Positions 9,162 through 36,168 of a stretch of 37,248 nucleotides of DNA are shown here, one piece after another (within the stretch, counting starts at the first letter, position 1; each line of letters starts with the position of its first letter). The translations under genes and the position numbers were made by a program. Source of the DNA: a virus; the IMG/VR virus record IMGVR_UViG_3300022821_000061, positions 1-37,248 of that record; one strand, written 5' to 3'. Below the pieces are notes generated by a model. That model did no database searches. It saw only the letters and a list, made by a program, of their open reading frames with translations, and was not told where the DNA came from.

Positions 9162-9181
9162 CTATTTTCAGGAGAAATGGT

Positions 9182-10740: not shown

Positions 10741-11787
10741 ATGGCGGGCAATACTTTAAGCACACCAGCTCAGCGAATTGGTGCATCAAAAGGCGCAATC
10801 CTTAAACATGCCGAGCCGAAGGAAGCTCTTGGCATAACTGGCGAACAGCACAACATGGCGAAAAACACTGGTGATACAGTGAAGTTTCGTCGATGGTTGC
10901 CGTATGGTGGTTCTACTACCAACGCGAATACCATTAACCGCTGGAACGTAACAGCCAGTGCCCATCAATTGCAGGAAGGCCAGAACCCTGAGCCAGATCG
11001 CCTTGATGCAGAAGATCGTACTGTCACCATGCGTGACTATGGCGCGATCTACTACTACACAAACTTTGTTGAAGATCTTTACGAAGATGATATTCCACGC
11101 GCCCAAAAGATTGTTCTTGGCCAGCGCATGGGTCTTGTTCGTGAAATGATCCGATACGGCACATTGCAGGGCTGTACTAATAAGTTCTACGCAAGCGGTG
11201 TAAATCGCGGCACAGTGTCGGGCAAGATCACTCTCAACGCGCTACGTGTAATCTCTAAATCCCTCAAGGGTAATCACTGCGAGTTCATTACAGAAGTATT
11301 GTCTGCCGGTCCTAAGTACGGCACTACTTCTGTTGAGCAATCGTTTCTGGTATTTGTTCACACAGATGCTGAAAACGATATTCGTAATCTCCCAGGCTTT
11401 ACCAAAACTGCGCTTTATGCCAGTGGCCAGCCTATACACAAGATGGAAATCGGTGCGGTTGATAACTATCGATTCATCATAAGCCCTGAATTGACCAGCA
11501 TTGCTAACTCTGGCGCCGCTGTTGGCTCTACCGGCTTGTATAGCACTGGCGGCACTAACCTCGATGTATACCCATATATCGTTGTTGGCGCTAATGCGTG
11601 GGGTGATGTTGCCCTTAAAGGTTCGCGTAGTTTCGACTACTCTCATTTACCTCCTGGCCAGAAAGATAAGTCAGACGTATTGGGTAAGCGCGGTTACTGT
11701 GGTGCGAGCTTCTATAGCGCGATGTTCATCCAGAATGATGGGTGGATGGCTGTGTTAGAGGCCGGCATTACTTCACTTTCTGCGTAA
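10741..11787 (+). CDS. major capsid protein, N4-gp56 family
   Basis: A 348-residue capsid protein. ATG 10741 is preferred because CGGAGA lies 8 nt upstream; a 9-residue longer reading from TTG 10714 has no ribosome site. The sequence fits the N4-gp56 capsid family: TVKFRRWLPYGGS (N-terminal arm), VTASAHQLQEG, DRTVTMRDYGAIYYYTNF (E-loop/P-domain strands), HTDAENDIRNLPGF, and the conserved DVYPYIVVGANAWGDVALKG. It forms the icosahedral shell around the scaffold. A 10-bp hairpin follows 18 nt after the stop, which may stabilise or separate this highly expressed message. Confidence 0.9.
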   Translation: MAGNTLSTPAQRIGASKGAILKHAEPKEALGITGEQHNMAKNTGDTVKFRRWLPYGGSTTNANTINRWNVTASAHQLQEGQNPEPDRLDAEDRTVTMRDYGAIYYYTNFVEDLYEDDIPRAQKIVLGQRMGLVREMIRYGTLQGCTNKFYASGVNRGTVSGKITLNALRVISKSLKGNHCEFITEVLSAGPKYGTTSVEQSFLVFVHTDAENDIRNLPGFTKTALYASGQPIHKMEIGAVDNYRFIISPELTSIANSGAAVGSTGLYSTGGTNLDVYPYIVVGANAWGDVALKGSRSFDYSHLPPGQKDKSDVLGKRGYCGASFYSAMFIQNDGWMAVLEAGITSLSA

Positions 11788-11805
11788 GCGGATCACTTTA
11801 GCTGA

Positions 11806-11832
11806 GGGTCTGGTGAACTAAACACCAGGCCC
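11806..11832 (+). other. stable hairpin after the capsid gene
   Basis: GGGTCTGGTG (11806-11815) pairs with CACCAGGCCC (11823-11832) over 10 bp with one G-T wobble and a 7-nt AACTAAA loop. No T tract follows, so it is not a standard terminator. It could protect the 3' end of the capsid mRNA or partly attenuate downstream expression. It ends three nt before the ribosome site of the next gene (AGAGG) and could also affect its translation. Confidence 0.6.
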
Positions 11833-11849
11833 ATAAGAGGAATTTGAGT

Positions 11850-12338
11850 ATGAAACTACCATTAGAGGGCCTAACAATGGCCTTAAACTCGGGTGCTATG
11901 GTCGTCGATGACGGCGCTACCACCTTTGACATTGCTACTGCGGTCAACTTTGCGCTAGATGGTGCGGCGTATTTGAAGGCAACAGTATCCAATGGCGCTA
12001 CGCCTACCTCAGACGGGACTACTGGCGCTGCCTTTGTTCCTGTCTTACCAGATCAGGCATGTGTTTTTGTCTTTGCTTTGAATGCTACCGGTACTGTGTC
12101 TTTGCACCAAGCAGATAGTGTTACGGTCGATGCTGACTCAGATGTGCTTGACGTTGCTGCACAGCTGCCATTGATTGACCTTAACACCTACTGTCCTATT
12201 GCCTATGTCTTGTATCAGACTGCCGGTACTAGTGCTGCTGTCGGTTTAAAGCCTGGTACTGACAACTGGAATGCCACTGGCCTTACCAGTACGGTTGTAG
12301 ATTTAATCGTCTACCCTTCGCGCCCTGTTGCTGCTTAA
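11850..12338 (+). CDS. putative virion protein (head-associated)
   Basis: A 162-residue beta-rich protein. ATG 11850 follows AGAGGA; TTG 11844 would sit too close to it. It is Ala/Thr/Val/Asp-rich with almost no Lys or Arg (FVPVLPDQACVFVFALNATG, LDVAAQLPLIDL). It lies between two hairpins, just after the capsid gene. A decoration or cement protein is the usual gene at this place, but no family signature is visible. Confidence 0.58.
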   Translation: MKLPLEGLTMALNSGAMVVDDGATTFDIATAVNFALDGAAYLKATVSNGATPTSDGTTGAAFVPVLPDQACVFVFALNATGTVSLHQADSVTVDADSDVLDVAAQLPLIDLNTYCPIAYVLYQTAGTSAAVGLKPGTDNWNATGLTSTVVDLIVYPSRPVAA

Positions 12339-19000: not shown

Positions 19001-19010
19001 GGAGAAAAAA

Positions 19011-19322
19011 ATGATATATAAACAACTACCAAGTACGTACAAAGCTGACACGATTGCAATAGCCATGTACGCAAGAGAAATTGAGTATTTCCACTATGAG
19101 TTTGACGCCATCAACTTTGAGTTTCTGATTGCCAACGCGCCTGAAGGTGCTGACCTGATAGATTTAAAGCAGCGGCTGCACGACACGCGCACTCAGATGG
19201 AAGCAGTTGAGAACACGCAAGCTGCGCTTGCGGCGCAAATAACCGATCAAGGCGAACACGAAGCAGCGGTAATACGAACGGCTACAGCGAGGGCTGATGA
19301 TGCGTTACGCACAGGTAAATAA
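19011..19322 (+). CDS. small fibre-associated helical protein
   Basis: A 103-residue protein. ATG 19011 follows AAGGAG that begins at the fibre stop codon; a longer TTG reading from 18990 overlaps the fibre gene and is rejected. The N-terminus is aromatic and mixed (IAIAMYAREIEYFHYEFDAI), the rest a coiled-coil-like helix (LKQRLHDTRTQMEAVENTQ). Position after the fibre suggests a fibre chaperone or a capping subunit. Unrecognised family. Confidence 0.58.
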   Translation: MIYKQLPSTYKADTIAIAMYAREIEYFHYEFDAINFEFLIANAPEGADLIDLKQRLHDTRTQMEAVENTQAALAAQITDQGEHEAAVIRTATARADDALRTGK

Positions 19323-20427: not shown

Positions 20428-21411
20428 ATGTACATGGCAGAGAGAGACAAAAGTAAGGATCTAAAAGTCGATGATATTGGCTCTTATACTGCGACTAAGG
20501 CCGACATAGGAGAAGCTGATTTAGTTCAGTCCCGTATTGGCGGGGTGATGAACGATAGCAACTTGCGCAATCAAGCTATCGGAACAGCTAATAGCCAGGC
20601 AGGGTCAAGAGGGCTTATTAATAGCCAAATGAACACCCAGGGCGCTGTTGAGGAACTGTATAAGGCTGCTTTGCCTATTGCCTCTCAGGACTCAACTAGC
20701 CTAATTGAGGGCAAAAAGTTTAATGCCAGCACTATGAATGAGGCTGGCCGATTTAATACAGGGGAAAAAAACAAGGGCATTATAGAGAATATTCGTTCTC
20801 AGAACAACTTAGACTCTATTTATGAAAGAGGTAGATCTGATTATTCAATTCAAACACTTCGCGGGACTCAAGAGTTATCTCAAATTGGGGCGCGAGGTGC
20901 GATTGAAATGGGTCTACAGGACAGGGCAGATGCCGGCGCAATGAGTCGTCTTAATGTTTCTGGCGATCAAGCTCTTGCCCAGATAGTTGAGCGCGGTGAT
21001 ATTGATATTAATCTTGAGACTTTGCGAGCAACTAGCGATCAAACAATTGCTGACATTAAAGCCAAAAACGACAGGCTTATTAGTGCTAATCAGGCAGCTT
21101 CTCTTGTTTACTCAAATACTCAGGTTGCAATTGCCAATGTTTTGACTAGTGCTGCTGCTGGGGATATTCCAAAAGCTAACGTCCAGGGATATGTTGACAT
21201 TCTTAACGGAGAGCTAGAGAGGTCGTTACTGACTATTGGCACGTTTGCAGATGTTAATGTAAGCGGGCTATTGCCGGCAGTTGACCCGGAAGATGCAGGT
21301 ACAGGAGACTCGGGCAGCGCTGCCAGCAATGATCCTGCTAATTACGACCCTGGCGCCAATACAAATTATGGCGGCGACAATGACTACCGAACTAGCGAGA
21401 ACTTTGGGTAA
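20428..21411 (+). CDS. putative internal virion or ejection protein
   Basis: A 327-residue protein starting at ATG 20428, with ATG 20434 as alternative; AAAGGTAAC is the ribosome site. The 65-nt leader has a possible -10 (TATACT, 20392-20397) without a good -35. The protein is almost all helix with Gln/Asn/Ala/Asp-rich repeats (GTANSQAGSRGLINSQMNTQ; AIEMGLQDRADAGAMSRL) and ends in a low-complexity tail (ANYDPGANTNYGGDNDY). It opens a block of four helical, low-cysteine proteins preceding the giant virion protein. That is the usual place of podophage ejection proteins (roles like T7 gp14-16 or P22 gp7/16/20), which leave the head before the DNA. Confidence 0.6.
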   Translation: MYMAERDKSKDLKVDDIGSYTATKADIGEADLVQSRIGGVMNDSNLRNQAIGTANSQAGSRGLINSQMNTQGAVEELYKAALPIASQDSTSLIEGKKFNASTMNEAGRFNTGEKNKGIIENIRSQNNLDSIYERGRSDYSIQTLRGTQELSQIGARGAIEMGLQDRADAGAMSRLNVSGDQALAQIVERGDIDINLETLRATSDQTIADIKAKNDRLISANQAASLVYSNTQVAIANVLTSAAAGDIPKANVQGYVDILNGELERSLLTIGTFADVNVSGLLPAVDPEDAGTGDSGSAASNDPANYDPGANTNYGGDNDYRTSENFG

Positions 21412-21414
21412 CAG

Positions 21415-21849
21415 ATGATTCGGCCTGCTACACAGCAAGATATACCTGCCGTAATAGAGCTTTCACTTGAAGCCCTATCGATCGATGGCTATACAGGGCT
21501 TGTGCCCAGCAGGGAAAGAACAGCAATTACGGTACAGGAATGTATCTGCAGTGCTAAAAATTTTTCTTGGGTGTCAGAGGTCGACGGTGTTATTTGCGGC
21601 GGTCTGGGCGTGTTGGTAATGCCCTTTATGATGTATGAGCGGAATCAAGCGGTGATAGCTATGTGGTACTGCCCCAGATCATCTGATGGGTTAAAACTGC
21701 TTAGGGAGTTTAAGACCTGGATGGGCACCAAGCCAATGATAAGGCAGGTTGTTTACTCGGAAGAAAGAAAATCGGATTGTCGAATTTCTAAATATTTACA
21801 AAAAGTAGGTTTTCAAGATTGCCTACCTACTCACGTTCTAACAAGGTAA
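21415..21849 (+). CDS. GNAT-like N-acetyltransferase
   Basis: A 144-residue protein starting 3 nt after the previous stop. The N-terminus MIRPATQQDIPAVIELSLEA is the classic first strand and helix of GNAT acetyltransferases; a core (VDGVICGGLGVLVMPF) and a C-terminal YLQKVGFQDC (the K-x-G-F motif) follow. The acetyl-CoA pyrophosphate loop R/Q-x-x-G-x-G/A is not clear, so activity is uncertain. A GNAT gene at this exact place, amid ejection genes, recurs in P22-like and related podophages. The substrate may be a virion protein N-terminus or a host target. Confidence 0.65.
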   Translation: MIRPATQQDIPAVIELSLEALSIDGYTGLVPSRERTAITVQECICSAKNFSWVSEVDGVICGGLGVLVMPFMMYERNQAVIAMWYCPRSSDGLKLLREFKTWMGTKPMIRQVVYSEERKSDCRISKYLQKVGFQDCLPTHVLTR

Positions 21850-21858: not shown

Positions 21859-22623
21859 ATGAGCAAAGTAATTAAGGGCGTCAAGAAAGTGGTGAAAAAA
21901 ATAACCTCTTCTAAGCTAGGCAAGGCTCTGCTTATTGCTGCGACTATTTACATTGGTGGCGCTGCGCTTGGTGCGTGGGGATCTCCTTTTACGTCAATCA
22001 ACGGGGCTCTTATTCCTGGTGGGGCAACTACTGGCGCGGGATCTGGGGTTGCTGCGAGCACTGCCGCAACAACGGCTACCGGAGTCAATACGGCTGCTTT
22101 AACGGGTACTGGTGGTGGGGCCGGGTTCTCTGTTGGCGGCACAGCGTCTACTGTTGCGGGTAATGCTTTGCCTGCTGCTGCCCCGGGCTTTACTGCTGGC
22201 GGTGTAACTAGCACTGTCGCAGGCACTGGATCTGCTGTAGCACCTGGGGTTGGCGCTGGGGTTGGCGCTGGTACGGGTGTTGCCTCTACGGTTACAGGAA
22301 CAGTGGCGGGAGAGACGGCAAAGACCGGCATTATTAGTAAAATGATGAGCGGGACCGGTAATTTTATAAGACAAAATCCATTAGTTTCTGCGATGGGAGT
22401 GAGTGGGCTTTCTTCAGCTTTGGCTGAGGGCGGGCCAAGTCAGATTGATATAATGCGCGAGCAGCAACTAATAGATGATGAGGATCGAGCTCGCCGCGAC
22501 GAAAATACAGACGTTAGCGGTATTACTCTTCCTAAATACAGACAAAACGACTTAACCTTTAAAAGCACTGGTGAAAAAGTTTTTACAGGTGGGTTAATTA
22601 ATGGCAGGAGGCTTTCAACATGA
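21859..22623 (+). CDS. membrane-active internal virion protein candidate
   Basis: A 254-residue protein. Residues 1-22 are strongly basic and amphipathic (SKVIKGVKKVVKKITSSKLG), followed by a hydrophobic helix (ALLIAATIYIGGAALGAWG). Then comes a long low-complexity Gly/Ala/Thr/Val region (about residues 50-155) and a polar helical C-terminus. The pattern suits a protein that enters the host envelope during ejection and forms a channel. Its 3' end overlaps the next gene by 4 nt (ATGA). Confidence 0.58.
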   Translation: MSKVIKGVKKVVKKITSSKLGKALLIAATIYIGGAALGAWGSPFTSINGALIPGGATTGAGSGVAASTAATTATGVNTAALTGTGGGAGFSVGGTASTVAGNALPAAAPGFTAGGVTSTVAGTGSAVAPGVGAGVGAGTGVASTVTGTVAGETAKTGIISKMMSGTGNFIRQNPLVSAMGVSGLSSALAEGGPSQIDIMREQQLIDDEDRARRDENTDVSGITLPKYRQNDLTFKSTGEKVFTGGLINGRRLST

Positions 22624-23315
22624 AACAGGGTTTAATTCAGGGCCAAATGCAACAAGAGCAAGTTCGGCCCGCTGGAAGTCAGGATTCTCCTGCTGGCCAA
22701 GGCGGTGCTGACCTTTCACAGCAAGGCGAGGGAATGCCCTCCGAACAGCAAATTTCGCTTGAAATGGCTGCCAAAAAGATCCTTTATGATGATAAGGCTA
22801 ACGCTCAGGTGCTTGAGTCTATACAGGCGGGAGCGCAGAACGATCCTTATAGGGCGGTAGCTCAATCTGCTTTTTTGCTTATGGCTGACCTAGATAGTCG
22901 CTCTGGTGGCAAGATACCTCCTGAAGATCTAATTCCTGCGGCAATAACGATTATGGAAGAGGTTGCTTTAATGGCTACCATGGCCGGCGCAGTAGAATTG
23001 CCTGGCGTAACCATGAGCGAAGCAAACGAGGCTACAGGGGAGGAAGGTGGCCTTCCTGTTATTGAAGAGCAGACATTGGGTAAGCTAACTCAGAACCTTG
23101 TTGCCATTGCTATTGAGAACGGAGTTATTGAGGCTGAAGATGTGCAAGATTTGTCTAGCGACTATTCAGACGACGAAATAATGAGCATGGTCGCCCAGCA
23201 AGAACAAATGTCTGGCGGTGCGCCTCCTAGCGCTGATCAGCAAGGTATGCCTCCTGCACAGCAAGGTATGCCACTAGGTCAACCAGCTGCCGGGGTTCCG
23301 GCTCAAGGAGTATAA
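22620..23315 (+). CDS. putative internal virion protein (Gln-rich)
   Basis: A 231-residue protein starting inside the end of the previous gene (ATGA overlap). The N-terminus is Gln/Gly-rich (MKQGLIQGQMQQEQVRPAG), the middle a well-folded helical domain (ISLEMAAKKILYDDKANAQV; AAITIMEEVALMATMAGAVE), and the end is a repeated QQGMPPAQQGMPLGQPAAG tail. No TM segment is clear. Its place between a membrane-active protein and a coiled-coil protein supports a virion core role. Unrecognised family. Confidence 0.56.
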   Translation: MKQGLIQGQMQQEQVRPAGSQDSPAGQGGADLSQQGEGMPSEQQISLEMAAKKILYDDKANAQVLESIQAGAQNDPYRAVAQSAFLLMADLDSRSGGKIPPEDLIPAAITIMEEVALMATMAGAVELPGVTMSEANEATGEEGGLPVIEEQTLGKLTQNLVAIAIENGVIEAEDVQDLSSDYSDDEIMSMVAQQEQMSGGAPPSADQQGMPPAQQGMPLGQPAAGVPAQGV

Positions 23316-23317: not shown

Positions 23318-24085
23318 ATGGCTGGAATTATAGGTAAGTTTCTTAAAGGCGTATCCGATGTTGCGGTTCCTGCGGCTATGGCTGACCAGGCTGCAAAAAT
23401 TGAGCTAAAGCGCATGGAAAAACTGCAAGGGTATAACCGGCAGAACATGCAAGTTCAGCAAGATTTTGCTACGCAGAACATTGATACAAGGCAGGGATAT
23501 GCTGTGGATAACCTCGAACAGCAGCAAGATTTTGCGGTCGAGAACAGGGAACAGCAGCAAAAAATGACGCTTGAGAACCAGGATCAGCAAAACATATTTA
23601 CCAGCGAAGAAAATCAAAAGATGAATGACCTTACGGCTCAAGGTCTTTCAATAGAGAGTGATCGCCTAGAAATTGCTAAGCAGCAAGCTGAAATTGTGCT
23701 TGAAACTGCCGAATTGGGATTGGTCGACCAAAGAAGATTGTCAGCTCTGTATGAGTCTGCGGTTGATCCTGATATAGATGAGGCTCAACGGAATTCAATT
23801 TCTGAGCAAATACTTGTGCTTACTGGGCAGGTTGGCGATAGATTTTCTGCATTGTATCGAGATAAGGTCGATGAAACTGGCTTCCCAACTGGCGGCAGGG
23901 ATACGTTTATTCTTAACAATATGACTAAAGAAGTATCAGGGATACCAGATCAGGCTAATAATTCTAGCAACCCTGCGGCCTCTGCCGATCAAGAAGAGCA
24001 AGAATACAGGGATGGTGATATTATAAATAACCCCAGCACTGGCGAGAGAATGGTGCTTAGGAATGGAAACTGGACACCTTTGTAA
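23318..24085 (+). CDS. internal virion protein with hendecad repeats
   Basis: A 255-residue protein with strong ribosome site AAGGAG. A short amphipathic N-terminus (MAGIIGKFLKGVSDVAVPAA) is followed by at least five, perhaps six, tandem 11-residue units at residues 36-101, each with Q at position 2 and an aromatic or Met at position 4 (for example QQDFAVENREQ). This is a hendecad coiled coil. A second helical part follows. The C-terminus DGDIINNPSTGERMVLRNGN ends in a WTPL motif common at the ends of phage ejection proteins. Its stop overlaps the giant gene's start (TAATG), so the two are coupled. Confidence 0.62.
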   Translation: MAGIIGKFLKGVSDVAVPAAMADQAAKIELKRMEKLQGYNRQNMQVQQDFATQNIDTRQGYAVDNLEQQQDFAVENREQQQKMTLENQDQQNIFTSEENQKMNDLTAQGLSIESDRLEIAKQQAEIVLETAELGLVDQRRLSALYESAVDPDIDEAQRNSISEQILVLTGQVGDRFSALYRDKVDETGFPTGGRDTFILNNMTKEVSGIPDQANNSSNPAASADQEEQEYRDGDIINNPSTGERMVLRNGNWTPL

Positions 24086-27000
24086 TGCCTCAAAAACTAC
24101 CTTCCGGCTTTGTTCTCGAAAAACCATATTCCAGTTCATTGCCTGAAGGCTTTGTTCTTGAGGACCGCAAAGGGCGCGGCGCTTTAGGCTGGGGGCAAGA
24201 TATTGGCCTATCTCTCCTATCTGGCACTACTTGGGTTCCTCAAGCTATTGTCGGTATATCCGATATCGTTACAGCCCCAAACAGGTGGGCTCTTGAAAAG
24301 ATAACGGGCAAAGATCTTCCCACAAACACTAAGATGCTTCAGAACATTGGCTTAGATTTCACTAAGGCCCAAGAAGTAGCTAGTGGCTTAAAAACAGACC
24401 AATCCCAAGAAAGCCGAGAAAATGTCAATAGGGCGTTTGAAGAGGGCGGTATCTATGAAGGTATCGGGGGTATCTGGGACAACCCTTCTGTTGCGCTTGA
24501 ATCTATTGCCGAATCTATCCCTTCTATGGTCAGCATGGCCGCTACTACTAGCATGGTTGCGCTGCGCATATTCAGCACTGCCGCAAAGACTGTTCCTGCT
24601 GGCGGTGAAGCGGCCATATTGGCCGGAAAGAAAGCTGTCGAACTCGCTATGCCGAAACTTAGGGCGCTGTCTGTGGCTCTTGAAGGCGGCTTGGTGGGCG
24701 GTCAGTCTGCCTCTCAGTTTGCTGAAGATGGTGATCTTACCGGGCGCGAGATTGCTGCATCCGTTGGCACAGGTATTACTACTGCTGGCGTGGGTGTTCT
24801 ATCTAATAAGATAGGTGGGAAACTTGGGCTAGAAGACGTTGAAGCAGCTATCGGTACAAGAGGTTTGCGTAATTCTCCTAAATCCGGGCTGATTGGTAGC
24901 GCGATGCGCGGCGGCCTTAAAGAAGGATTGCTTGAAGAAGGCCCGCAGTCATCAACTGAGCAGATGTGGCAAAACTGGGCTAATCGAGAGAATATCACTG
25001 AAGGTGTTGGTCAGGCCGGAGCTGAAGGTCTTGTAGTTGGTACTTTAATGGGGTTTTTTGGGGGCGGGGCTAGTGGTTTTCGCACTAAGTCGCAAAAGTC
25101 TGAAGACGCAATTAATAGAATCACTGATCCAAATAAAAGCATTGATGATGCGCTCGCTGAGGCTAACGATATCCTTGATGAGTCTCTTGTTGAATTTACT
25201 ACCGGTAACGTCCCTTCAGCTCAGGATGCGGTGGATACAACTTATGATCCATCTGAAGAGATTTTCAACCTTGAAACCAATATTTCCAGTTATGAAGAAC
25301 AATTACAGGCCGGCTTAGATCAGGATAATCCACAGGTGCAGAATCAGGCGCAAGAAGCTCTTGATTCCGCTAGAAGGCAGCTTGCTGCCCTCAGTGGTGT
25401 AGATTTCGGCAATCAGAGCGAACTAACCACCTCTAGGCTGGGTGATCAGCCTGCGGCCTTAGTGCCTGGCGGCGAGATACCGGGCATTGATTTTGCTAAT
25501 GATGCGCTTGGTCTAACACTTGAAACAGCTGATCAGGTTGCAAATAGAACTTTAAATTATGATGGCGGTGTTGATTTCACTACCGGTAACTTGCCTGCGG
25601 ATGCGGGGCTATCTACTGAGCCTGTTTCGCGTCTTGGTGAGTTTACTGATAACGGCATTGATTTTGAGGATGGCACGGTAGATAGACTTGCTGCCGGCGT
25701 GGAGCGCGAAGTACAGACCTTTGAAAGCAAGTTTACCCCTGAAGAGCAGGAGCCTACGTTTGATGAAGAGGTTTCCAAAATCAAGGCTAGCGGTAACACT
25801 CTCGAACTAAAGGATGCTATTGCTGCTTTAGGTGGTATCAGCGTGGCAGATGCTAAGGCTGAAGGCGCTATGGACCTTAACCAAAAGCAGGGGTTTAAGT
25901 GGCTTGGCACTAAAAATGGCATGAGCTTTGATGCTATGCGCGAGGCACTTGCACAAGACGGATTTGATTTTGCTACCGCTAACGATCTTGTCGACGCTTT
26001 GACGGAATCGATTAATGATAGGCAGTCTTATTACGCGCCTGCCGGTTACGAGCTGCAAGACCTTTACGAATTTAAGCGCCAAGAAGAAGATCAAAAGCAA
26101 TTGTTTGATGATGGCGAGCTTGCTCTTGTGGAAATGGAAGACGTTTACGAGCCTGAGTCTACCCAGCAAGAAAGGGTTATGGCCGATAGGGTCGTTAAAG
26201 CCATTGAAAGCGGATCGTTTAGCGAGGATCCAAATGAACTTGAAGAATACCTAGCCACTACTGACAGTGATTGGGCTGCAACTTGGGGAGTTATAGAGTA
26301 TGAAACACAAAATGCACAAGGCAACTTTGAAGGGCAAGCCCTTCAATCGGGAAATGGTCAAGAAGAACGTGGCCCGAATACTGGCGAAGCACAAGGCGCA
26401 AGCCAAGAAGAAATAGACGCTTTTGAGAATGCTTTTGAGCTGGATCAACCTACTGAGCAGTCATTGCAAGACGATGCCGCTACCGTGGCCGCCACTCAAG
26501 CCGAGGCGCTTACCGCTGCGCAAAGGGCTGACGCTGACGCACAGGTAGATGATTTTGTGCTTGCTGGATCTGACAGCACTGTAGATCAGGCTGAGGCGCG
26601 TGGCCAGTCAAACATGTTTGATCAGGAGCCGGCCCTATCGGAGCGAGATAGAGCTCAAGCCAGAATTGAAGCAAGCAGGGCGGCTAGATTAAAGCCGGTT
26701 ATTGATGTTGCTACTGGCGAGCAAATTACGCCAACAGGAAATCGCTCTGGTGATACTGCTACCTATACATTCGCTGATGGGACAGTTCAAAGCAGGGCTA
26801 ATGACGAGGTATCTGCTATTGATGATGCCCAGCCAGTTGAGGGCATTGAGGGTCAAGAACTAAATACTGACTCAGTTATTGCGGTAGCTGACTACTACCA
26901 AACACCCGGCGCGAGAGATTTAGCTAAAAAAGTTAAGTCAGGCGATGCTGCCGCAATTACTCAGATGGCTACAGAAATGGCCGCAGAACTTGAGCTTTCC

Positions 27001-30000
27001 CCTGGATCTATATTTGTCCCTATCCCCTCTTCTGGCGGCGTTGCTACCTATACAAAGCAATTAGCCAATGAGATAGCGGCAATCAACGGGGGCACTGTAT
27101 CCGATATATTAAAAGGTTCGGAGCGAGAGTCTTTATACGACACTAAAAAATCTGGAGGAAATGCAGCCGAGGTAGATTTTGGGTTTAGGCTGGACGGTGA
27201 TGCCCCTCAAGGCAATATTGTTCTGGTGGATAACGTGATGGATACGGGAGAAACAGCTAGTGCGGCTTTTAGATTGTTGCCTGGTAGCTCTGTCCTAGTT
27301 CATTCCGCATCTAACGGACAGCCTTCGCCGGACGAAAGAACTCTTGAGCAGGTTAAGCAGGAAATGGCAGATAACGAAGCTGCTGAAGTTACTGTTGAAT
27401 CTATGGAAGCTGGATCGGTGCTTTCTGATGAAGCGGCAGCAATCCAGCTTGAAACGATACGGACTAAGCTGATCGCTGAAGAAATACCGGTCATACAGGA
27501 CGGTTCTCTGTATTACACAGTATCGCCCTCTACTCGCGTGGCTGGGTCTTACCAGATCACGACCTATAACGATTCAGGGGCTCTTGGTGATACTACTGTT
27601 GAGACTATTGATCAGATTGGCTCTTTAGCTAACGGAATTGACCTTGCTAGGGTAGACATTCTATCTGAGGCTGATGCTGAGCAGGTCATGGCGAGGGTAG
27701 TTTCTGGCGAGTCTGAGTTTCAAAGTAATAAATCTAATGAAGGCCAAGCGAAAACTGGCGGTGAATACGGTTTGAACGGCCAGTGGTACAAAGGCGGTCA
27801 ATTTATGCCTGCCAGCGCCAGAACAGTTAAAGGTGAATGGAAGTTTGAAGTAAGCAAGACTGGTGGCGCAGGGAAGTCACTTATAGCCCCTGGTGAGTTT
27901 GCTAGATCGCCTGAAGGTCATGGATCTCTTTATCAAGGTTGGCTGCAGGAGTTTACCCGACCGAATGAGAACGGCGATTTAGAGCGTTTTGAGGGTCATA
28001 GCGATGATACTTTGATGCGTAATTCTGGCTGGACTCCTGCACAACTCCAAGAGCGTATTGATCTTTTTAACAATGGTGTTCGATTCACCGCCATTGGTAG
28101 TGACTTAACTCCTTATTCTCCTGATGCTACAGCACCAGAATCACAGGGATCAACTGAGCCTAAATCAGAACTTGCCCAGGCCACCGAGGCAATGCAGCAG
28201 GTTGCTGCGGCATTAACCGCTCAGAACGAATCCCCGGCAGAAACCTCATTAATAGCTAGCATTGATGAAAATCTGGCCAAGATGCCTGAAGGCGAGCTAT
28301 CCATTGCAGAATTTAAGGCTGCGTTTGAATTCGTTGTTGAGAATGAAGAAGGTATTAAGGCCGAATTATCTAAATTAACTAAAGCCCAGCTGCTAGACCG
28401 TATGGATGGCTACAGCGCAGAACGGAATAAGAACGACAAGAAAGCCAGCGTAGTTCGATCTGCTTTTGACGATATGGTTAGTGATTTCATGGCACCTACT
28501 GCCGGCGAGTCTGGAATGATTAGCTTTACCATTGGAGTGGGCGGCGATGCAATGGCATCTAAAAAGGCCAAAATTGATCAAGTTACCCAAGAAGATCTTG
28601 ACGGTTACGCAAAAAAGGTTTCTACAGCGAGAGAAAATAGAGCTAGACAGCAGGTTGAAAGAGAAGAGGGTATAGAAAACCCTGAAACAATTGACGATTA
28701 CCGCAACATAATGAACGCACTGGCTAGGGATGCAGGTGTAAAGACATTTAAAGAAGCCAGGGCTTTAATGCCTTTTGATCAGCGCGTTGAATATGATCGA
28801 TTGCTTGCGTCTGAATCTCGTGAAAAACGTAACTTTGATATTAATGCTCAGAAAACTAGGCTTTTAACGTCTGGGCAGTTGGTTGAAGGCGAGATAATTG
28901 AAACTACTCATACTAAGAACGGCAATGATTTGTTTGTTGTTCAGCTCGCTGATCGTGTTCCACGTGAAGACTTCCTATCTTTAAACTCATCTGCTAAGAA
29001 GCTAGGAGGCAGATATTCTAGTTTTCGCGGTAACGGTGCAGTACCAGGCTTTACTTTTACCTCAAGAGAATCTGCCGAAGCATTTAAGAGTTTGGCTGGT
29101 GGTGACTCTCAGCAGGCCGAAGGAGTTGCCCAGGCTCGTCGTGATGCCTTTGTAGATGATAGGTCGCAATCTGCGGTAGAGCGTCTGCGTGATATGGCTG
29201 AGAAGCTAGATAGCCGTGGTAATGAGTCGTTAAGTCAGGATCGCAAAGAAAATACAGCTAGACGGGCAGGCATGGCGGCTAACGCTGAAGCTAAAGCACA
29301 ATCTAGTATTGCTCTGTCTAAAACAATGAGCCGTATTGCTGACGGTATTGAGGCGGGTGAAATTACCTTTCTTGACCAGGTTCGCGCAAAAACTCAAGTT
29401 GATATGCTTGAATCTTTTATTGGCGTGGCTAAAAGTGATCAGGCTTATTCTGACAAAGATCTTAGCTACTCTCAAAAAGAGGAAATTCGAAATGCTCCGG
29501 CCACTGCTGAGGCCGTGGAGTTTGCTACATTCCCAGAATACACAGCTTACCGCTCTGATTTGGCAAAGCTGGGAAGGCAGTTACAGGAGATAAGCGGCAC
29601 CAAGCGTCTTGGTGACAAGCTGATGAAGATATCAGACGATGTTACTACCCAGTACACTACGTTCGCTAAAAACAACTTAAGCGAGGTTTCTAACTTCGTT
29701 AAGAAGGATGGTAGCACTGCTAGTTTCTCGACTAAGAAAGCGGCTCAGGCTTCTATTTATAGCTCCGGTTTCGATGGAAAGGCTGTTGCTATTGAGATTA
29801 AGCGCGGTGAGCACGTTATTGTAATGAGCCCATCTGAGGCCCAAAAGTCTGGGGTATGGGATGGGCAGGAAGATACCAAGGTATCACTTTCTAAAGACTT
29901 TGCTACCGAATTAGTTGAAAAGGTTGGCAGAAAATCTGTTTCATTGCCGTGGCAGCTGGATAGCGCCCACGAGAAGCGGAAACGATTGTCTGCAATGAAT

Positions 30001-33000
30001 ATAGAAACTCCTGCTGAGTTTCGTTCAGCCCTTCAGGAATATGTTGGCTTGCAAGAAATTGCAACGGCGCCGGATAAGATTAAAGAGCTTGAGCGCAAAA
30101 TGGTTGGCCGTAGCAATGATGATCTTGATTTCTTTCCTACTCCTGCTGGCATAGCTGAAGAAATGATTGAAACTGCTGGAATTGAGGAAGGTATGACGGT
30201 GCTTGAACCTTCTGCCGGGATGGGTCATATAGCTGACCAGATGCGCCAATTCGATATCGAGCCCGATGTGATTGAAATGTCTGGTGCTCGCAGGGAACTT
30301 CTTGAAGCTAAAGGCTATAACCTGGTTGGCAATGACTTCTTAGAATCAACTGGCCAGTATGATCGAATTATTATGAATCCGCCTTTTTCTGATAGGCGCG
30401 ATTTTGAGCATGTAAAGCACGCCTATTCTCTTCTTAAGCCGGGCGGTCGATTAGTTGCCATTGTCGGCGAGGGAGTGTTTTTTGGGTCTGATAAGCGGGC
30501 CCAAGAATTTCGCACATGGTTTGAGTCTGTTGAAGGCACTGATGAAAAATTAGCTGAGGGTACTTTTCAGGATCCCAGCTTGCCGGTAACAACTGGCGCT
30601 AGTGCTAGGATGATAGTTGTTGAAAAAGATTCGGTGCAAAGTGCCCCGCTAGAATCTAGGCTTCAAGCAACCGGTAACGGCATGACTGCAGCGGCAGTAA
30701 GTGAGGCTATTGGGCCTATGCTAGAAACCTTTAGCGATGAAGTGGCTCAAGAGGCTATTGTTGTACAGTCATTTAGTGATCTTCCTGCAAGCATTACTGA
30801 CTACTATGATCTTGACAATCCTCCTACTAGCCGTGCGCTTTATTACGAAGGAACGGCATACTTTATTGCTGACGCAATTAGCACTGTTAGAGAGGCACGA
30901 ACCGCCGTTGCTCACGAGCTTATAGGGCATAAAGGCATATTAGAGTACGTGAACGAGCAGGAATGGTCTGATATAAAATCTACTATTGATCAGCAGCTTG
31001 GTAATAATGCTGAGCAAGCCACTAGCATAATGGCTGAGGTTGATAGGCGTTACCCTGGGGCATCTAAGGAAACTAAGTACAAAGAATTTTTAGCGGTAGC
31101 AGCCGAGAGGCGCAATCTTCGCGGCACGTTGAAAGATTTGATTGAGAAGGTCAAAGCTATGCTTCGTGGCTACCTGAAGTCTATGGGCCTTCGCGGTCCT
31201 TTCTCCGAATCTGACATTGAAATAATACTGCAGAACTCTGAAAAGAATTTACGTGGCTCTCAAGATTTGTCTGCGTCTGGATCCGATACGGCTAATTCTA
31301 TGGGTAATGATGCCGGCATGGTTCCTGCGGCATCTTCTGAAATCAGCTTTGACAAAATATCTCCTGAATTCTTTTCACAGCTCTATGAAAACGTATCCTC
31401 TATCACTCAGTCAAAAAGTTCTCCTGAGCAATTGCTTGCTGCTATTCGTAAAAAGGGTGGTGTTAAAGAAGAGGAAATTCAGTGGACCGGGATTGATAAG
31501 TTTCTGGCTGGCAAGAAATCTGTGACCAAACAAGAGGTATTGGACTACCTTGCTGACAACATGGTTCAGGTTGATATGGTCGAAATTGCTGATGATGAGA
31601 GTGATTATGCGTCGATCAAGGAACAGATCATAAGAGAATACGCTGAAGAAGAAGGGCTTTATTTTGATAACGGCGGTGAAGGCTATTCATATTTGCTTGA
31701 GCAAGATTCTGAAGGGAACCCGCTAGATGCTGATGAATCTACGGTTGATCCAATAGAGGGCAGCTATGACGATATTATTAGCGAAATAGGAACTCTTGAT
31801 TACGAGGAAAACCCTGATTCATTAACTGAATACAAGAAATACACATTGCCTGGTGGGGCTAACTACCGTGAAATATTATTTAAGTTGCCTGATGGTCCAG
31901 ATCAGGACGCCGACTATAAATCGCCGCATTACACTAGAGAAAGAGCCAGAAACCTATTGGCCAGTGTTCGCGCTAATGATCGTGTTGGCCCGAATGGTGA
32001 GAAGATTCTATTTATTGAAGAAATCCAATCTGACTGGCATCAATCTGGAAAAAAAGAAGGTTATGGCGAAAAAGCTACTTACGAAATTATTGAGCCAACA
32101 GAATCGCAAATGGAAAAAGGCGATTACAATTATAGTGCTTTAATAAGATCTCCTAACGGAAGTGTTGTTAATTCGAAGTTAGGCTTTAATCTCCCAGATC
32201 TTGAGTCTTGGGCAAGCAAGCAAGTCTCTAGCGGCGAGGGGGGGATACCTGACGCGCCGTTTAAAGGGAATGCTTGGGTAGAGCTATCTGTTAAGAAGAT
32301 ACTAAGGATTGCGTCTGAAGGCGGCTATGATCAGGTGGCTTGGACTAACGGCCAGCAGCAGGCAGATCGGTACAGCTTATCAAAGCAAGTTGAAGTAATT
32401 AGGTACAATGCCGAAAAGCAAAACTTGCAAGTTTGGAAAAAAGACCCTGATAGCACTGATCAATACATGGAAGCTGAAATTGATGAAAGTGTAACGCCTG
32501 AAGACATTGAAAAATATATAGGCAAAGAAGCGGCACAAAAGATACTGAGCGATGACAACCAGAAAGATAACGATGGCTATTCAGTGCTTAAAGGGGATTC
32601 GCTAAATATTGGCGGCGAAGGAATGAAGAGCTTTTACGACAAAACTGTTCCCAATATCTTCTCGAAGGTTGTTAAAAAGCTGGATAAGTCTGCAAAGATA
32701 GGTCAAACAACTGTTGTTGACGATCAGGCCCAGCAAGCACTAACAATTACGCCGGCTATGAAAGATGCCGTAATGCAAGGTATGCCGTTGTTTAGTGCCA
32801 AAAGCAGTGATGGTCAGGCGCCAATGCAGGCTAGCGCGTTTGGCTCTATCAAAGAGGGTGATAACTGGGTAGACGAATATGGTGATTCAGCTGATATAAA
32901 TAATATAGAAGACCAGGTAAATGAGCAGATAGACGCCGTAATTGGGATGATTGATAACGACAACCCTGCTGCGGCCAAGTTTGCTAGCGAAGCTCTTCCA

Positions 33001-36000
33001 AGCCTGATTTACGCAAAAGAAAACAATGTTCCTGTCAGCGACATAAGCATTAAGAAAATTCAAAATGCTGCGCTTAGGTATGAGGAAGGATCGACGCCCA
33101 TTGCCCAAGAGGAAAATCAAAACTCTACGCAAATTGCGTTTCTTGAATTAGAAACTGAGTTTTTGCAGTCATCAATTAATGAAATGGAGCAGCGGCCCAG
33201 CAAAAGCATTGAGGTTCGCCGGCTAATTAAAAAAGATCAAGCCTTGCTCGACAGCTATAGCAGCGAGCTATCTGTGCTTAAGTCTGGGGCAGGCCCCGAC
33301 ATACTTGCAAGCGATGGCACTCCTGATTCAGAATTTGCCGCAGAAAACAGAGCTATTCGGGAAGAAGATAAAACGGCGTGGAGTAAAGCCAAAACTGAAT
33401 TAAAGCGCCAGCTAACTGCCGGCGGGTTACTTCCTGACTCTGTATTTAATAGCAAGATAGCGCGTGACAATGAATTAGCTGTTGTGGAATTTGATGCAGC
33501 TCATTATATAGGCGAGCTCGAACGTGCCGTGCGCGATGAGTACGGAGTTAATGCAGGGGATCTTACAGAAACTGATCAATTTGCTTTATCTGAGGGCCTT
33601 AGCGGGAGCATGCCCAAATCGGTTAAACCTAAAACAAAAGAATCTCTTATTAAGATGCGCGTTCATATTGACAATATAAGCCAAGAATACATCGCTATTT
33701 TGCAGGAGCAGACACAGCAGTTATCCGCAAACTTAGATGAGGGCGAGCAAATATTGTTAAGCGGGTTTCTTGAAGCGGGTAATATTGAGGTTGTCGGCAC
33801 CACTCCTGCGGCTAAGGGACAGGCTACCAGACAGCGCAATGAAATAATGAGTGTTGCACGTGAAACAGCAAAAGAAACCTGGGGCAGTGGTAAGCAAATG
33901 CAGGCTTCTCTAGGAAAAGTTGCCACTATTGCCGAAAAGATTTCCTTAATGGGCACTATTATTGCCAATGACGGCAAGTATGTTCATCGATCTTACAAGG
34001 CGTTCGACGATCCTAAATGGGCTAAAAAGGTTCCTGACAAAGTTTTAAACAATGCTCGTGAATATCTAGTTGAGCAGATAATGACTTTTGATGATCTATC
34101 TCAGGCTGACGCGCAAACTAGGGCACGTGTAGTTATTGAGGATATCCTGAAGGAAGGCACTGCCTATGACAACATGGAATCTTTTATCAACGAATCTAAG
34201 CTGGGCGCCAAGGATTTGTCTGTGCTTAAGCGTAGGAAGCAAATTGCGCCAGAGATACGTGAACTGCTAGGGGAATATCGCGATCCTCGAGTTAATTACG
34301 CAAAAACTGTTACCAAAATGGGCAGGCTTGTTTTCAATCAGCGGTTCTTAGAGCAGGTTCGAGAGGCCGGAATGGGTGTGTTCTTGTTTAACGAGGACGA
34401 TAGGCCGCCAAACACCACTCAGATAGCTGCTGACGGCTCTGAATCATATTCCCCGCTAAATGGACTCTACACTACTAGGGAAACCAATCAGGCTTTTAAG
34501 GACGCTCTAGGCAAGGAACAGATGGCCGACTGGTATAGATATGTTATCCAGGTAAACGGCGCGGTTAAGTTTGGCAAGACCGTGCTTAGCCCGACTACTG
34601 CAGCAAGAAACTGGCAATCGGCTATGTTCTTTACCCTGGCTAACGGTCATTTTGATTTAACGCACATGTCTAAATCGGTGTCTGGATTTAAAGAATATTT
34701 TACTCAGGCTGGTGATAAGGAAAAATTAGACTATCTGCGCAAATTAAAACTGCTGGGCGTGGTGTATGACACGCCTTATGCCGGTGAAATGATGAGGCTT
34801 TTACAGGACTCCAATGTTGAGAACCTTATTGGCGGGACTCCTGCGGGCATGGGCGTAAAGAACGCTCTTGGCGTGGCTCAAAAATTCTATCAATACGGCG
34901 ATGATTTTTGGAAGATAATCGGCTTCGAGAATGAAAAGCAGCTGTTAATTGAAAGCGGTACATCCGAGGCTGATGCGGAAATAGAAGCAGCTGAGAGAAT
35001 TCGTAACACTTATCCCACCTATTCAATGACTGGCAGGGCCGTTAATTGGCTGCGTCGATTCCCGCTAGCCGGCACCTTTGTCTCGTTTCCGTCTGAAATA
35101 GTCAGGACCAGCTACCATATTATGAGATATGCCGCGACTGATATGGCGAATCCTGCTAGGCGGTCTATGGGTATTAGAAGGTTGTCGGGCATGGCGGTTG
35201 CTTCCGGCTTGGCGTATGCCGCTCAAGCTATATCCAAAAGTATGTTTGATATTGACGACGAGGAAGAGGAAGCGGTAAGGCTACAGGCCGCTCCATGGCA
35301 GAAAAACAGTAATCTGGTGTTCACTGGTCGTGATGAGAATCAAAATCTTCAATATTTTGATATTTCTTTTCTGGATCCTTATAACTATTTTAAGCGCCCT
35401 ATCAATGCGATTCTACGTGACCAGCCTTGGGAGAAAGAGTTTGCCAGTGCTGCCAGCGACATGGTTAGCCCTTTCTTTGGAACTGACATAATGGCCGGCG
35501 CGTTGTCTGAAGTTTGGATGAATAAGAAGAGCTCGGGTGGAAAAATCTATAATGAAAGCGATTCACCGGTTAATCAAACCAAAGCAATGATGAACCATAT
35601 AAGGAAGTCTGCCCAGCCTGGCATAGTGTCTAATCTCGAGCGCACGTACATGGCGCTCAATGGTGAGGTGTCTGCTTCCGGGAAGAAATATGACATAGGT
35701 GATGAGGCGTGGTCGTGGGTTGGGTGGCGTATGTCGACTCTTGATCCTAAAACGGCACTGCTTTATAGATCTTATGAATTCGGTGATGTTAAGCGTGACG
35801 CTACTCAGGTTCTTACTCGGGTGCTAAAGGATCGCAACGATATTGACGAAGGCGATGTTGAGGAAGCATACGAGCTATCCCTTAAGATTAGGAAGCAGGG
35901 CTATGACGATATGATTACCCTGGTTAAAGCGTCTATGAAAAGCGGTCTAACAGCTGGTGATGTTCGCGCAGTGCTGCGAAATAGCGGAGTTTCCTTGTCT

Positions 36001-36168
36001 GACGTTAATGCCTTGGTTACCGGTCGTGTACCTCCATGGGTTCCCTCTACTCAGCAGCAAACCTCAGCATACAGGAGTGCTCGCGCAGTATTGGGACCAG
36101 AAAAGGCGGCGGAGATTCGCCGTAGATACTCTCAGGCCAGAAAGTTGAGGCGCCCAATGGATGATTAA
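24085..36168 (+). CDS. giant 4027-aa phage polyvalent protein
   Basis: One uninterrupted frame. Residues 5-27 carry two LP.GFVLE motifs; about 33-340 hold Gly-rich hydrophobic segments, perhaps membrane-active. About 929-1075: phosphoribosyltransferase-like, with PRPP loop VLVDNVMDTGETASAA (about 1046-1060). About 1612-1672: a polyvalent accessory module (DLFVVQLADRVPREDF, KKLGGRYSSFRG). About 2013-2190: N6-adenine methyltransferase with SAM loop LEPSAGMGH (2040-2048) and catalytic NPPF (2098-2101). About 2273-2350: zincin-like AHELIGHKG (H2277, E2278, H2282) and later EFLAVAAERR. About 2440-2900: EIQSDWH (2646-2652) module ending in GMPLFS. About 3230-3600: module with YVHRSYKAFDDPKW. About 3660-4027: LPD38-like C-terminus. 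It is probably packed in the virion and ejected to protect phage DNA or counter host defence. Roles are inferred from motifs; no RNA polymerase motif is seen. Confidence 0.85.
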   Translation: MPQKLPSGFVLEKPYSSSLPEGFVLEDRKGRGALGWGQDIGLSLLSGTTWVPQAIVGISDIVTAPNRWALEKITGKDLPTNTKMLQNIGLDFTKAQEVASGLKTDQSQESRENVNRAFEEGGIYEGIGGIWDNPSVALESIAESIPSMVSMAATTSMVALRIFSTAAKTVPAGGEAAILAGKKAVELAMPKLRALSVALEGGLVGGQSASQFAEDGDLTGREIAASVGTGITTAGVGVLSNKIGGKLGLEDVEAAIGTRGLRNSPKSGLIGSAMRGGLKEGLLEEGPQSSTEQMWQNWANRENITEGVGQAGAEGLVVGTLMGFFGGGASGFRTKSQKSEDAINRITDPNKSIDDALAEANDILDESLVEFTTGNVPSAQDAVDTTYDPSEEIFNLETNISSYEEQLQAGLDQDNPQVQNQAQEALDSARRQLAALSGVDFGNQSELTTSRLGDQPAALVPGGEIPGIDFANDALGLTLETADQVANRTLNYDGGVDFTTGNLPADAGLSTEPVSRLGEFTDNGIDFEDGTVDRLAAGVEREVQTFESKFTPEEQEPTFDEEVSKIKASGNTLELKDAIAALGGISVADAKAEGAMDLNQKQGFKWLGTKNGMSFDAMREALAQDGFDFATANDLVDALTESINDRQSYYAPAGYELQDLYEFKRQEEDQKQLFDDGELALVEMEDVYEPESTQQERVMADRVVKAIESGSFSEDPNELEEYLATTDSDWAATWGVIEYETQNAQGNFEGQALQSGNGQEERGPNTGEAQGASQEEIDAFENAFELDQPTEQSLQDDAATVAATQAEALTAAQRADADAQVDDFVLAGSDSTVDQAEARGQSNMFDQEPALSERDRAQARIEASRAARLKPVIDVATGEQITPTGNRSGDTATYTFADGTVQSRANDEVSAIDDAQPVEGIEGQELNTDSVIAVADYYQTPGARDLAKKVKSGDAAAITQMATEMAAELELSPGSIFVPIPSSGGVATYTKQLANEIAAINGGTVSDILKGSERESLYDTKKSGGNAAEVDFGFRLDGDAPQGNIVLVDNVMDTGETASAAFRLLPGSSVLVHSASNGQPSPDERTLEQVKQEMADNEAAEVTVESMEAGSVLSDEAAAIQLETIRTKLIAEEIPVIQDGSLYYTVSPSTRVAGSYQITTYNDSGALGDTTVETIDQIGSLANGIDLARVDILSEADAEQVMARVVSGESEFQSNKSNEGQAKTGGEYGLNGQWYKGGQFMPASARTVKGEWKFEVSKTGGAGKSLIAPGEFARSPEGHGSLYQGWLQEFTRPNENGDLERFEGHSDDTLMRNSGWTPAQLQERIDLFNNGVRFTAIGSDLTPYSPDATAPESQGSTEPKSELAQATEAMQQVAAALTAQNESPAETSLIASIDENLAKMPEGELSIAEFKAAFEFVVENEEGIKAELSKLTKAQLLDRMDGYSAERNKNDKKASVVRSAFDDMVSDFMAPTAGESGMISFTIGVGGDAMASKKAKIDQVTQEDLDGYAKKVSTARENRARQQVEREEGIENPETIDDYRNIMNALARDAGVKTFKEARALMPFDQRVEYDRLLASESREKRNFDINAQKTRLLTSGQLVEGEIIETTHTKNGNDLFVVQLADRVPREDFLSLNSSAKKLGGRYSSFRGNGAVPGFTFTSRESAEAFKSLAGGDSQQAEGVAQARRDAFVDDRSQSAVERLRDMAEKLDSRGNESLSQDRKENTARRAGMAANAEAKAQSSIALSKTMSRIADGIEAGEITFLDQVRAKTQVDMLESFIGVAKSDQAYSDKDLSYSQKEEIRNAPATAEAVEFATFPEYTAYRSDLAKLGRQLQEISGTKRLGDKLMKISDDVTTQYTTFAKNNLSEVSNFVKKDGSTASFSTKKAAQASIYSSGFDGKAVAIEIKRGEHVIVMSPSEAQKSGVWDGQEDTKVSLSKDFATELVEKVGRKSVSLPWQLDSAHEKRKRLSAMNIETPAEFRSALQEYVGLQEIATAPDKIKELERKMVGRSNDDLDFFPTPAGIAEEMIETAGIEEGMTVLEPSAGMGHIADQMRQFDIEPDVIEMSGARRELLEAKGYNLVGNDFLESTGQYDRIIMNPPFSDRRDFEHVKHAYSLLKPGGRLVAIVGEGVFFGSDKRAQEFRTWFESVEGTDEKLAEGTFQDPSLPVTTGASARMIVVEKDSVQSAPLESRLQATGNGMTAAAVSEAIGPMLETFSDEVAQEAIVVQSFSDLPASITDYYDLDNPPTSRALYYEGTAYFIADAISTVREARTAVAHELIGHKGILEYVNEQEWSDIKSTIDQQLGNNAEQATSIMAEVDRRYPGASKETKYKEFLAVAAERRNLRGTLKDLIEKVKAMLRGYLKSMGLRGPFSESDIEIILQNSEKNLRGSQDLSASGSDTANSMGNDAGMVPAASSEISFDKISPEFFSQLYENVSSITQSKSSPEQLLAAIRKKGGVKEEEIQWTGIDKFLAGKKSVTKQEVLDYLADNMVQVDMVEIADDESDYASIKEQIIREYAEEEGLYFDNGGEGYSYLLEQDSEGNPLDADESTVDPIEGSYDDIISEIGTLDYEENPDSLTEYKKYTLPGGANYREILFKLPDGPDQDADYKSPHYTRERARNLLASVRANDRVGPNGEKILFIEEIQSDWHQSGKKEGYGEKATYEIIEPTESQMEKGDYNYSALIRSPNGSVVNSKLGFNLPDLESWASKQVSSGEGGIPDAPFKGNAWVELSVKKILRIASEGGYDQVAWTNGQQQADRYSLSKQVEVIRYNAEKQNLQVWKKDPDSTDQYMEAEIDESVTPEDIEKYIGKEAAQKILSDDNQKDNDGYSVLKGDSLNIGGEGMKSFYDKTVPNIFSKVVKKLDKSAKIGQTTVVDDQAQQALTITPAMKDAVMQGMPLFSAKSSDGQAPMQASAFGSIKEGDNWVDEYGDSADINNIEDQVNEQIDAVIGMIDNDNPAAAKFASEALPSLIYAKENNVPVSDISIKKIQNAALRYEEGSTPIAQEENQNSTQIAFLELETEFLQSSINEMEQRPSKSIEVRRLIKKDQALLDSYSSELSVLKSGAGPDILASDGTPDSEFAAENRAIREEDKTAWSKAKTELKRQLTAGGLLPDSVFNSKIARDNELAVVEFDAAHYIGELERAVRDEYGVNAGDLTETDQFALSEGLSGSMPKSVKPKTKESLIKMRVHIDNISQEYIAILQEQTQQLSANLDEGEQILLSGFLEAGNIEVVGTTPAAKGQATRQRNEIMSVARETAKETWGSGKQMQASLGKVATIAEKISLMGTIIANDGKYVHRSYKAFDDPKWAKKVPDKVLNNAREYLVEQIMTFDDLSQADAQTRARVVIEDILKEGTAYDNMESFINESKLGAKDLSVLKRRKQIAPEIRELLGEYRDPRVNYAKTVTKMGRLVFNQRFLEQVREAGMGVFLFNEDDRPPNTTQIAADGSESYSPLNGLYTTRETNQAFKDALGKEQMADWYRYVIQVNGAVKFGKTVLSPTTAARNWQSAMFFTLANGHFDLTHMSKSVSGFKEYFTQAGDKEKLDYLRKLKLLGVVYDTPYAGEMMRLLQDSNVENLIGGTPAGMGVKNALGVAQKFYQYGDDFWKIIGFENEKQLLIESGTSEADAEIEAAERIRNTYPTYSMTGRAVNWLRRFPLAGTFVSFPSEIVRTSYHIMRYAATDMANPARRSMGIRRLSGMAVASGLAYAAQAISKSMFDIDDEEEEAVRLQAAPWQKNSNLVFTGRDENQNLQYFDISFLDPYNYFKRPINAILRDQPWEKEFASAASDMVSPFFGTDIMAGALSEVWMNKKSSGGKIYNESDSPVNQTKAMMNHIRKSAQPGIVSNLERTYMALNGEVSASGKKYDIGDEAWSWVGWRMSTLDPKTALLYRSYEFGDVKRDATQVLTRVLKDRNDIDEGDVEEAYELSLKIRKQGYDDMITLVKASMKSGLTAGDVRAVLRNSGVSLSDVNALVTGRVPPWVPSTQQQTSAYRSARAVLGPEKAAEIRRRYSQARKLRRPMDD

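Follow-up and report, generated by a model that had tools for sequence, protein, structure and literature searches.

Polyvalent proteins, described by Iyer et al. in 2017 (PMC5512222), join unrelated enzyme domains in one polypeptide, with DNA methyltransferases (MTases), zincin-like metallopeptidases, phosphoribosyltransferases (PRTases) and GNAT domains all listed among them, and are encoded near late virion genes. The window analysed here is the entire IMG/VR virus record IMGVR_UViG_3300022821_000061 (37,248 bases), and its subject is the giant gene that closes the virion operon of this virus. The giant protein resembles the polyvalent proteins in its range of domains and its position, and its relatives carry LPD1, LPD3, LPD5, ART-PolyVal and ddrB-ParB domains. 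It differs in having no detected SWI2/SNF2 helicase or LPD domain, and in possessing a domain outside Pfam, termed EIQSDWH after its motif. The initial annotation had counted LPD-type modules in the protein; Pfam searches of the whole chain and of segments found none, and LPD1, LPD3 and LPD5 do occur in relatives that share its C-terminal core. ART and ddrB-ParB domains were likewise not detected by Pfam, and the sole NCBIfam match, a Rieske one at E = 0.18, is attributable to chance.

Several individual phage proteins are also among its closest counterparts. The giants of F116-like Pseudomonas phages (H66 gp60 and phiC725A_54; PMC5217972) share the N-terminal region (28% identity) and an 840-residue MTase-containing region (46–47%), are virion proteins by annotation and hold one cysteine in 3,787 residues; their C-terminal part, however, is not detectably related to the core of the giant. 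Pseudoalteromonas phage vB_Pun_Y3 (OR779980; hereafter Y3), the nearest cultured phage with matching gene order, has a syntenic virion operon, the MTase region and the core (42% identity), both giant proteins being cysteine-free, but its giant comprises 3,421 residues and its core forms a separate gene of 1,027 residues. Cellulophaga phage phi18:3 gp123 shares the core (29%), is a structural protein detected by tandem mass spectrometry (MS/MS) and lacks cysteine, but has 1,935 residues and different N-terminal content. The virion RNA polymerase of coliphage N4, gp50, is also an ejected multidomain giant with an HExxH domain, a large helical C-terminal part and no cysteine in 3,500 residues; the two C-terminal parts, however, have no detectable sequence relation. 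Identity of the giant with an N4-type virion RNA polymerase was rejected, as no RNA polymerase match was found in Pfam, PHROGs or NCBIfam. P1 DarB is a virion-borne giant with a gamma-class adenine MTase, unlike the present protein in belonging to a myovirus, in its MTase–helicase dyad and in keeping nine cysteines.

We consider it probable that the giant is a polyvalent protein held inside the virion and ejected at infection, that its core is the delivery part, and that its lack of cysteine was selected by passage through the periplasm in an unfolded state. Homology, genomic position, the annotation of homologues by mass spectrometry and the cysteine signature all give good support to the initial annotation's proposal of a multi-enzyme polyvalent phage protein ejected with the DNA.

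Giant gene and constant C-terminal core

The gene is a single open frame from the ATG at 24085 to the TAA at 36168, without internal stops, as first annotated. It encodes 4,027 residues with a predicted mass of 440 kDa, a length far beyond chance, and its start codon overlaps the stop codon of the preceding gene (TAATG, 24083–24087). The features of the protein are as follows.

24085–36168, + strand: predicted giant polyvalent internal virion protein, 4,027 residues, no cysteine (open frame, motifs, cysteine count)
24163–25221, + strand: N-terminal region, residues 27–379, Ala/Gly-rich and mildly hydrophobic (phrog_30335, E = 5e-19)
25072–26784, + strand: acidic, poorly conserved region, probably a linker, residues about 330–900, 21% D+E
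26932–27354, + strand: probable PRTase domain, residues about 950–1090 (phosphoribosyl pyrophosphate (PRPP) motif, sub-threshold PF00156, PyrR)
28123–30054, + strand: conserved region of unknown function, residues 1347–1990 (phrog_11358/15406)
30067–30654, + strand: predicted gamma-class N6-adenine DNA MTase (FFPTP...VLEPSAGMG...NPPF)
30727–31284, + strand: zincin-like metallopeptidase domain, HELIGH with a conserved downstream Glu (alignment with L004, L007, L021 and L112)
31402–32634, + strand: EIQSDWH domain, residues 2440–2850, predicted divergent GNAT fold (homologues, conservation, AlphaFold2, Foldseek)
33337–36147, + strand: C-terminal core, residues 3085–4021, all-helical, about 940 residues, the constant part of the family

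The core, with its PLAGTF motif at 35062–35079, is 42–58% identical in about 20 relatives, which come from viral contigs and from bacterial prophages (Azoarcus, Dechloromonas, Zoogloea, Halopseudomonas, Pseudomonas and Azomonas among them). It is C-terminal in every relative whose end is covered by sequence. The content upstream of it varies, comprising LPD5 with LPD1, ART-PolyVal, ddrB-ParB, LPD3, RadC or an MTase. In one virus contig, the giant that carries the core (L023, open reading frame (ORF) 6545–12229) has a RadC/JAB domain at residues 775–828; among polyvalent proteins, RadC is listed by Iyer et al. for those of conjugative elements alone (PMC5512222). Residues 3257–3985 match phrog_22602, a 'virion structural protein' (E = 2e-90). 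Two homologues that cover different parts of the giant are annotated as virion components: phi18:3 gp123, related through the core, by 'experimental MS/MS proteomics' of virions, and H66 gp60, related through the N-terminal region and the MTase, as 'verified by mass spectrometry'. Because the C-terminal part is constant, the upstream domains are swapped and homologues carry these annotations, the core is best read as a constant packaging and delivery part and the domains upstream of it as exchangeable cargo.

Position at the end of a late operon would by itself also fit a cytoplasmic late protein, an assembly factor or polyprotein that is never delivered to a new host. The annotation of the two homologues as virion components argues against this, as does the exclusion of cysteine, which the giant shares with known ejection proteins and not with the cysteine-rich acetyltransferase of the same block, and we regard such a role as very unlikely.

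The predicted model of the core is all-helical (predicted local distance difference test (pLDDT) score of 70). Its best PDB match is a chain of a cyanophage pre-ejectosome (E 4e-3), and its viral structural matches are 'large polyvalent' proteins. T7 gp16 was set aside as a match, its VIA Z-score of 6.2 being not above background in a list dominated by generic helical repeats; an alignment placing PLxGTF near 'QFKSF' of T7 gp16 (P 0.5) was not used. The core profile, searched against PDB sequences, gave only short coiled or designed-repeat matches, and comparison by hhalign with the C-terminus of the Vibrio phage douglas protein was not significant.

Cysteine exclusion in the giant and in ejected proteins

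The giant contains no cysteine in 4,027 residues, against 29.6 expected from the 23 genes upstream of position 20428 (P about 1e-13). Read in its two remaining forward frames, this DNA holds 93 and 230 cysteine codons, so the absence is an effect at the level of the protein. Four neighbouring ORFs (1,067 residues in all) are also cysteine-free, and an acetyltransferase gene lying among them encodes 6 cysteines in 144 residues; the DNA of this block is thus not averse to cysteine codons.

20428–21411, + strand: cysteine-free ORF, 327 residues, candidate ejection protein
21415–21849, + strand: stand-alone acetyltransferase gene inside the block, 144 residues, 6 cysteines
21859–22623, + strand: cysteine-free ORF, 254 residues, candidate ejection protein
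22620–23315, + strand: cysteine-free ORF, 231 residues, candidate ejection protein
23318–24085, + strand: cysteine-free ORF, 255 residues, candidate ejection protein, its stop codon overlapping the giant's ATG (TAATG)

When the gene products are concatenated, the longest cysteine-free run is 4,775 residues, compared with a maximum of 2,198 in 1,000 shuffles. The exclusion extends to the family: 27 relatives hold 11 cysteines in 69,809 residues, and 23 of the 27 hold none. In ten giants set against other ORFs the ratio for cysteine is 0.01, and that for every other residue lies between 0.67 and 1.30. The apparent cysteine of L117 precedes a better coupled start codon. In L120 (ORF 2–6379), an insert of about 310 residues (residues about 1255–1570) interrupts the core at a GK|T position, has a LLGDGS-type motif and contains four of the five cysteines of the ORF; judged by its sequence it looks like an intein, and inserts of this kind, which leave the mature chain, may be exempt from the rule.

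The same depletion is found in known ejection and cargo proteins of T7 (gp14–16, 1 cysteine in 2,261 residues), N4 (gp50–52, 0 in 4,294), P22 (gp7, gp16 and gp20, 0 in 1,309) and ΦcrAss001 (gp45–47, gp49 and gp50, 7 in 7,478). Together they have 8 in 15,342 residues, against 173 in 21,256 for a hand-picked comparison set of other proteins from these phages (Fisher P about 3e-31). Among proteins of at least 400 residues, cysteine density separates ejected from non-ejected ones with an area under the curve of 0.94. Two Pelagibacter phages agree: HTVC028P gp33–36, examined afterwards, have 0 cysteines in 2,660 residues and normal neighbours, and HTVC027P gp82–85 have 0 in 2,246. On balance we favour the view that short-tailed phages, as a general rule imposed by function, keep cysteine out of the proteins they eject through the Gram-negative envelope, and that the ejected proteome, giant cargo enzymes included, is largely readable from sequence. 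The giant itself belongs to a known kind of protein, and this general rule is the part that a specialist would not expect. Iyer et al. do not discuss cysteine (PMC5512222), and a literature search that lacked most subscription papers found no earlier report that ejection proteins exclude cysteine.

The cause of the exclusion has one main rival. Cysteine could have been lost through long storage in virions exposed to oxidising extracellular conditions, or through crowding in the head, rather than through periplasmic passage. Scaffolds inside the capsid are cysteine-free too, and the cargo of ΦcrAss001, whose host is anaerobic, is strongly but not absolutely depleted, both in favour of this rival. 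Yet injected proteins carried in the heads of myoviruses keep cysteines (P1 DarB 9 in 2,255 residues, T4 Alt 3 in 682; only these two were compared), and the tail lysozyme T4 gp5, whose target is the cell wall, lacks them throughout its 575 residues, in what is again a comparison of few proteins. We regard storage or crowding as possible, though doubtful, and retain selection during periplasmic passage as the probable cause.

Other observations weigh against ejection through the periplasm by means of the core. The proteins compared were picked by hand, and the gene labels of the model phages rest on annotation, cited reviews and structures. Of 23 non-ejected proteins of at least 400 residues, three have 0.25% cysteine or less; the T7 and P22 scaffolds and the N4 capsid protein also lack cysteine, as does a tail fibre of 1,348 residues in Vibrio phage douglas 12A4 (L004 1708–5754), perhaps misannotated. 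The giant L021 holds eight cysteines in one domain. The structural matches of the core are weak (E 4e-3; Z 6.2), and hhalign comparisons of the core with the C-termini of N4 gp50 and H66 and with T7 gp16 were not significant. The cysteines of L021 (ORF 896–11332) form two four-cysteine clusters at residues 1748–1956, one of them CxxxxxCxxxCxxC, in an otherwise cysteine-free giant; this domain may be a metal- or Fe–S-binding cargo and a true exception to the rule.

Predicted enzyme domains of the proposed cargo

The motifs named by the initial annotation are all present, and those of the MTase, zincin and EIQSDWH domains are conserved in relatives. Residues 1347–2190, spanning the conserved region and the MTase, show 46–47% identity with F116-like phages and with a prophage of Dechloromonas. 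The MTase, whose NPPF lies at residue 2098 (30376–30387), has the gamma-class arrangement reported in polyvalent proteins (TP and NPP[FY] motifs; PMC5512222), and its FFPTP, EPSAGMG and NPPF motifs are conserved in divergent phage relatives. Most polyvalent proteins pair such an MTase with a helicase; Pfam scans found no SWI2/SNF2 helicase C-terminal to the MTase, and a zincin domain lies there instead, with its HELIGH at residue 2277 (30913–30930). Around HExxH and the downstream Glu, residues 2215–2400 align with the phage giants L004, L007, L021 and L112. The order of MTase then zincin recurs in L004, L007 and L112, so that of the distinct module set and order first proposed the exact combination stands, the pair does not, and swapping is the rule.

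The EIQSDWH domain (motif EEIQSDWH at residue 2645, 32017–32040) was found at no fewer than 46 viral loci with residues 2440–2850 as query; no Pfam family matches it consistently, and no mention of the motif was found in the literature searched. Across 31 sequences R2629, R2633, E2639, E2646, Q2648, D2650, P2725, D2749 and W2753 are invariant. In Foldseek searches with its AlphaFold2 model (pLDDT 80.6), the best solved structures are GNAT acetyltransferases (top match SSAT, probability 0.99 but E 5e-3), and the best 50 rows of the VIA structural list are nearly all acetyltransferases (Z-scores up to 7.4). The canonical pyrophosphate loop was not recognised. From the model, the fold of the domain is likely that of a divergent GNAT protein, which gives a predicted fold to a domain that occurs at 46 or more viral loci and lacks a Pfam family. 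In Pelagibacter phage HTVC028P it is a gene of its own, adjoining the genes of internal virion proteins.

The PRTase domain, at residues about 950–1090, is probable but weakly supported. Its PRPP-type motif, VLVDNVMDTGET, at residues 1046–1057 (27220–27255), has DN in place of DD; PF00156 matches below the cut-off (E = 0.06), PyrR structures match with E about 0.6, and one viral relative was found (E = 5e-4). As single queries in viral scans, the PRTase and MTase regions gave no confirmed relatives.

The departure of the PRTase motif from DD would suit a protein that is ejected but mainly structural, part of an inner-membrane ejection channel like T7 gp16, with enzyme-like modules that play a minor part, have decayed or assist in assembly. 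So would the standing of the core as the most conserved part, its weak resemblance to ejectosome chains and its encoding in Y3 as a separate gene. The preservation of FFPTP, EPSAGMG and NPPF in the MTase, and of HExxH plus Glu in the zincin, in divergent phages speaks against decay, as do the nearly invariant EIQSDWH residues in 31 sequences; this suggests that selection is maintaining the enzymes. A mainly structural role is unlikely, and the multi-enzyme cargo protein remains the preferred reading.

The N-terminal region (residues 27–379) is common to the giants of Pseudomonas H66/F116-like phages and several prophage giants (28–29% identity to L003, L111, L112 and L116). A membrane-active start had been suggested for the protein; its first 330 residues are indeed more hydrophobic than the remainder, but no strong transmembrane helix was found, the best 19-residue hydropathy windows scoring 1.33 (residue 145) and 1.31 (residue 40).

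Proposed route into the cell and genomic setting

Ejection of the giant, its proteolysis, its substrates and the selective cause of cysteine loss are what we infer in the following scheme. By way of its core the giant would be packaged inside the head, close to the portal. At infection it would pass through the narrow portal and tail in a largely unfolded state, together with the small cysteine-free proteins encoded just upstream, and would then cross the periplasm, by analogy with T7, N4 and ΦcrAss001. There, cysteines of an unfolded chain could be trapped as disulfides in oxidising surroundings and would be selected against. Cargo of N4 and ΦcrAss001 must unfold, at least partly, for channels of 30–50 Å (N4 and ΦcrAss001 papers), and periplasmic disulfides block the transit of autotransporter passengers, a block relieved in dsbA mutants (PMC1533851); on these grounds unfolded passage is expected to select against cysteine. 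Most autotransporter passenger domains are cysteine-poor (PMC9769942). Inside the cell the giant would refold and its zincin domain may cut the chain into working units, self-processing by zincins being a hypothesis of Iyer et al. for polyvalent proteins (PMC5512222). The freed MTase could methylate incoming DNA, the GNAT-like EIQSDWH domain might acylate a host target, and the PRTase could act on nucleotides.

An anti-defence package, as first suggested, is no more than plausible: DNA protection by the MTase fits the antirestriction role of DarB (as cited in PMC5512222), but the helicase partner was not found, and we know of no defence phenotype for any member of the family. The passage of chains as long as 4,000 residues through a channel of 30–50 Å and two membranes, and their later work as enzymes, is an open question (N4 and ΦcrAss001 papers). 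If the cysteine rule is true, near-absolute exclusion of one residue offers a simple genetic handle on this passage and a sequence test for injected phage proteins, and the design of constant core and swapped cargo would be a natural vehicle for enzyme delivery.

The genes of the window run, 5' to 3', from a RusA-like resolvase through TerS, TerL, portal, an N4-gp56-like capsid protein and tail genes to a repeat-bearing fibre-like protein, followed by the stand-alone acetyltransferase, three more small ORFs and, last in the portal/capsid/tail operon, the giant gene. From this content and the Y3-like order the phage looks like a podovirus. Rfam and tRNA scans of the window found nothing, and its capsid protein was not found in five host genomes that carry the core as prophage, in a search without a positive control.

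The GNAT acetyltransferase gene (21415–21849) sits between ejection-protein candidates; acetyltransferase genes are similarly placed in Y3 (L002 12499–12951) and in Pelagibacter phage HTVC028P (gp37), all with cysteines. The tail-fibre-like gene at 16913–19000 has about seven tandem repeats of 47 residues with a propeller-like look (18023–19027; 141-nucleotide period, 87–94% identical). Just upstream of the small terminase gene lies a 49-nucleotide direct repeat (84%) at 3047–3095 and 3719–3767.

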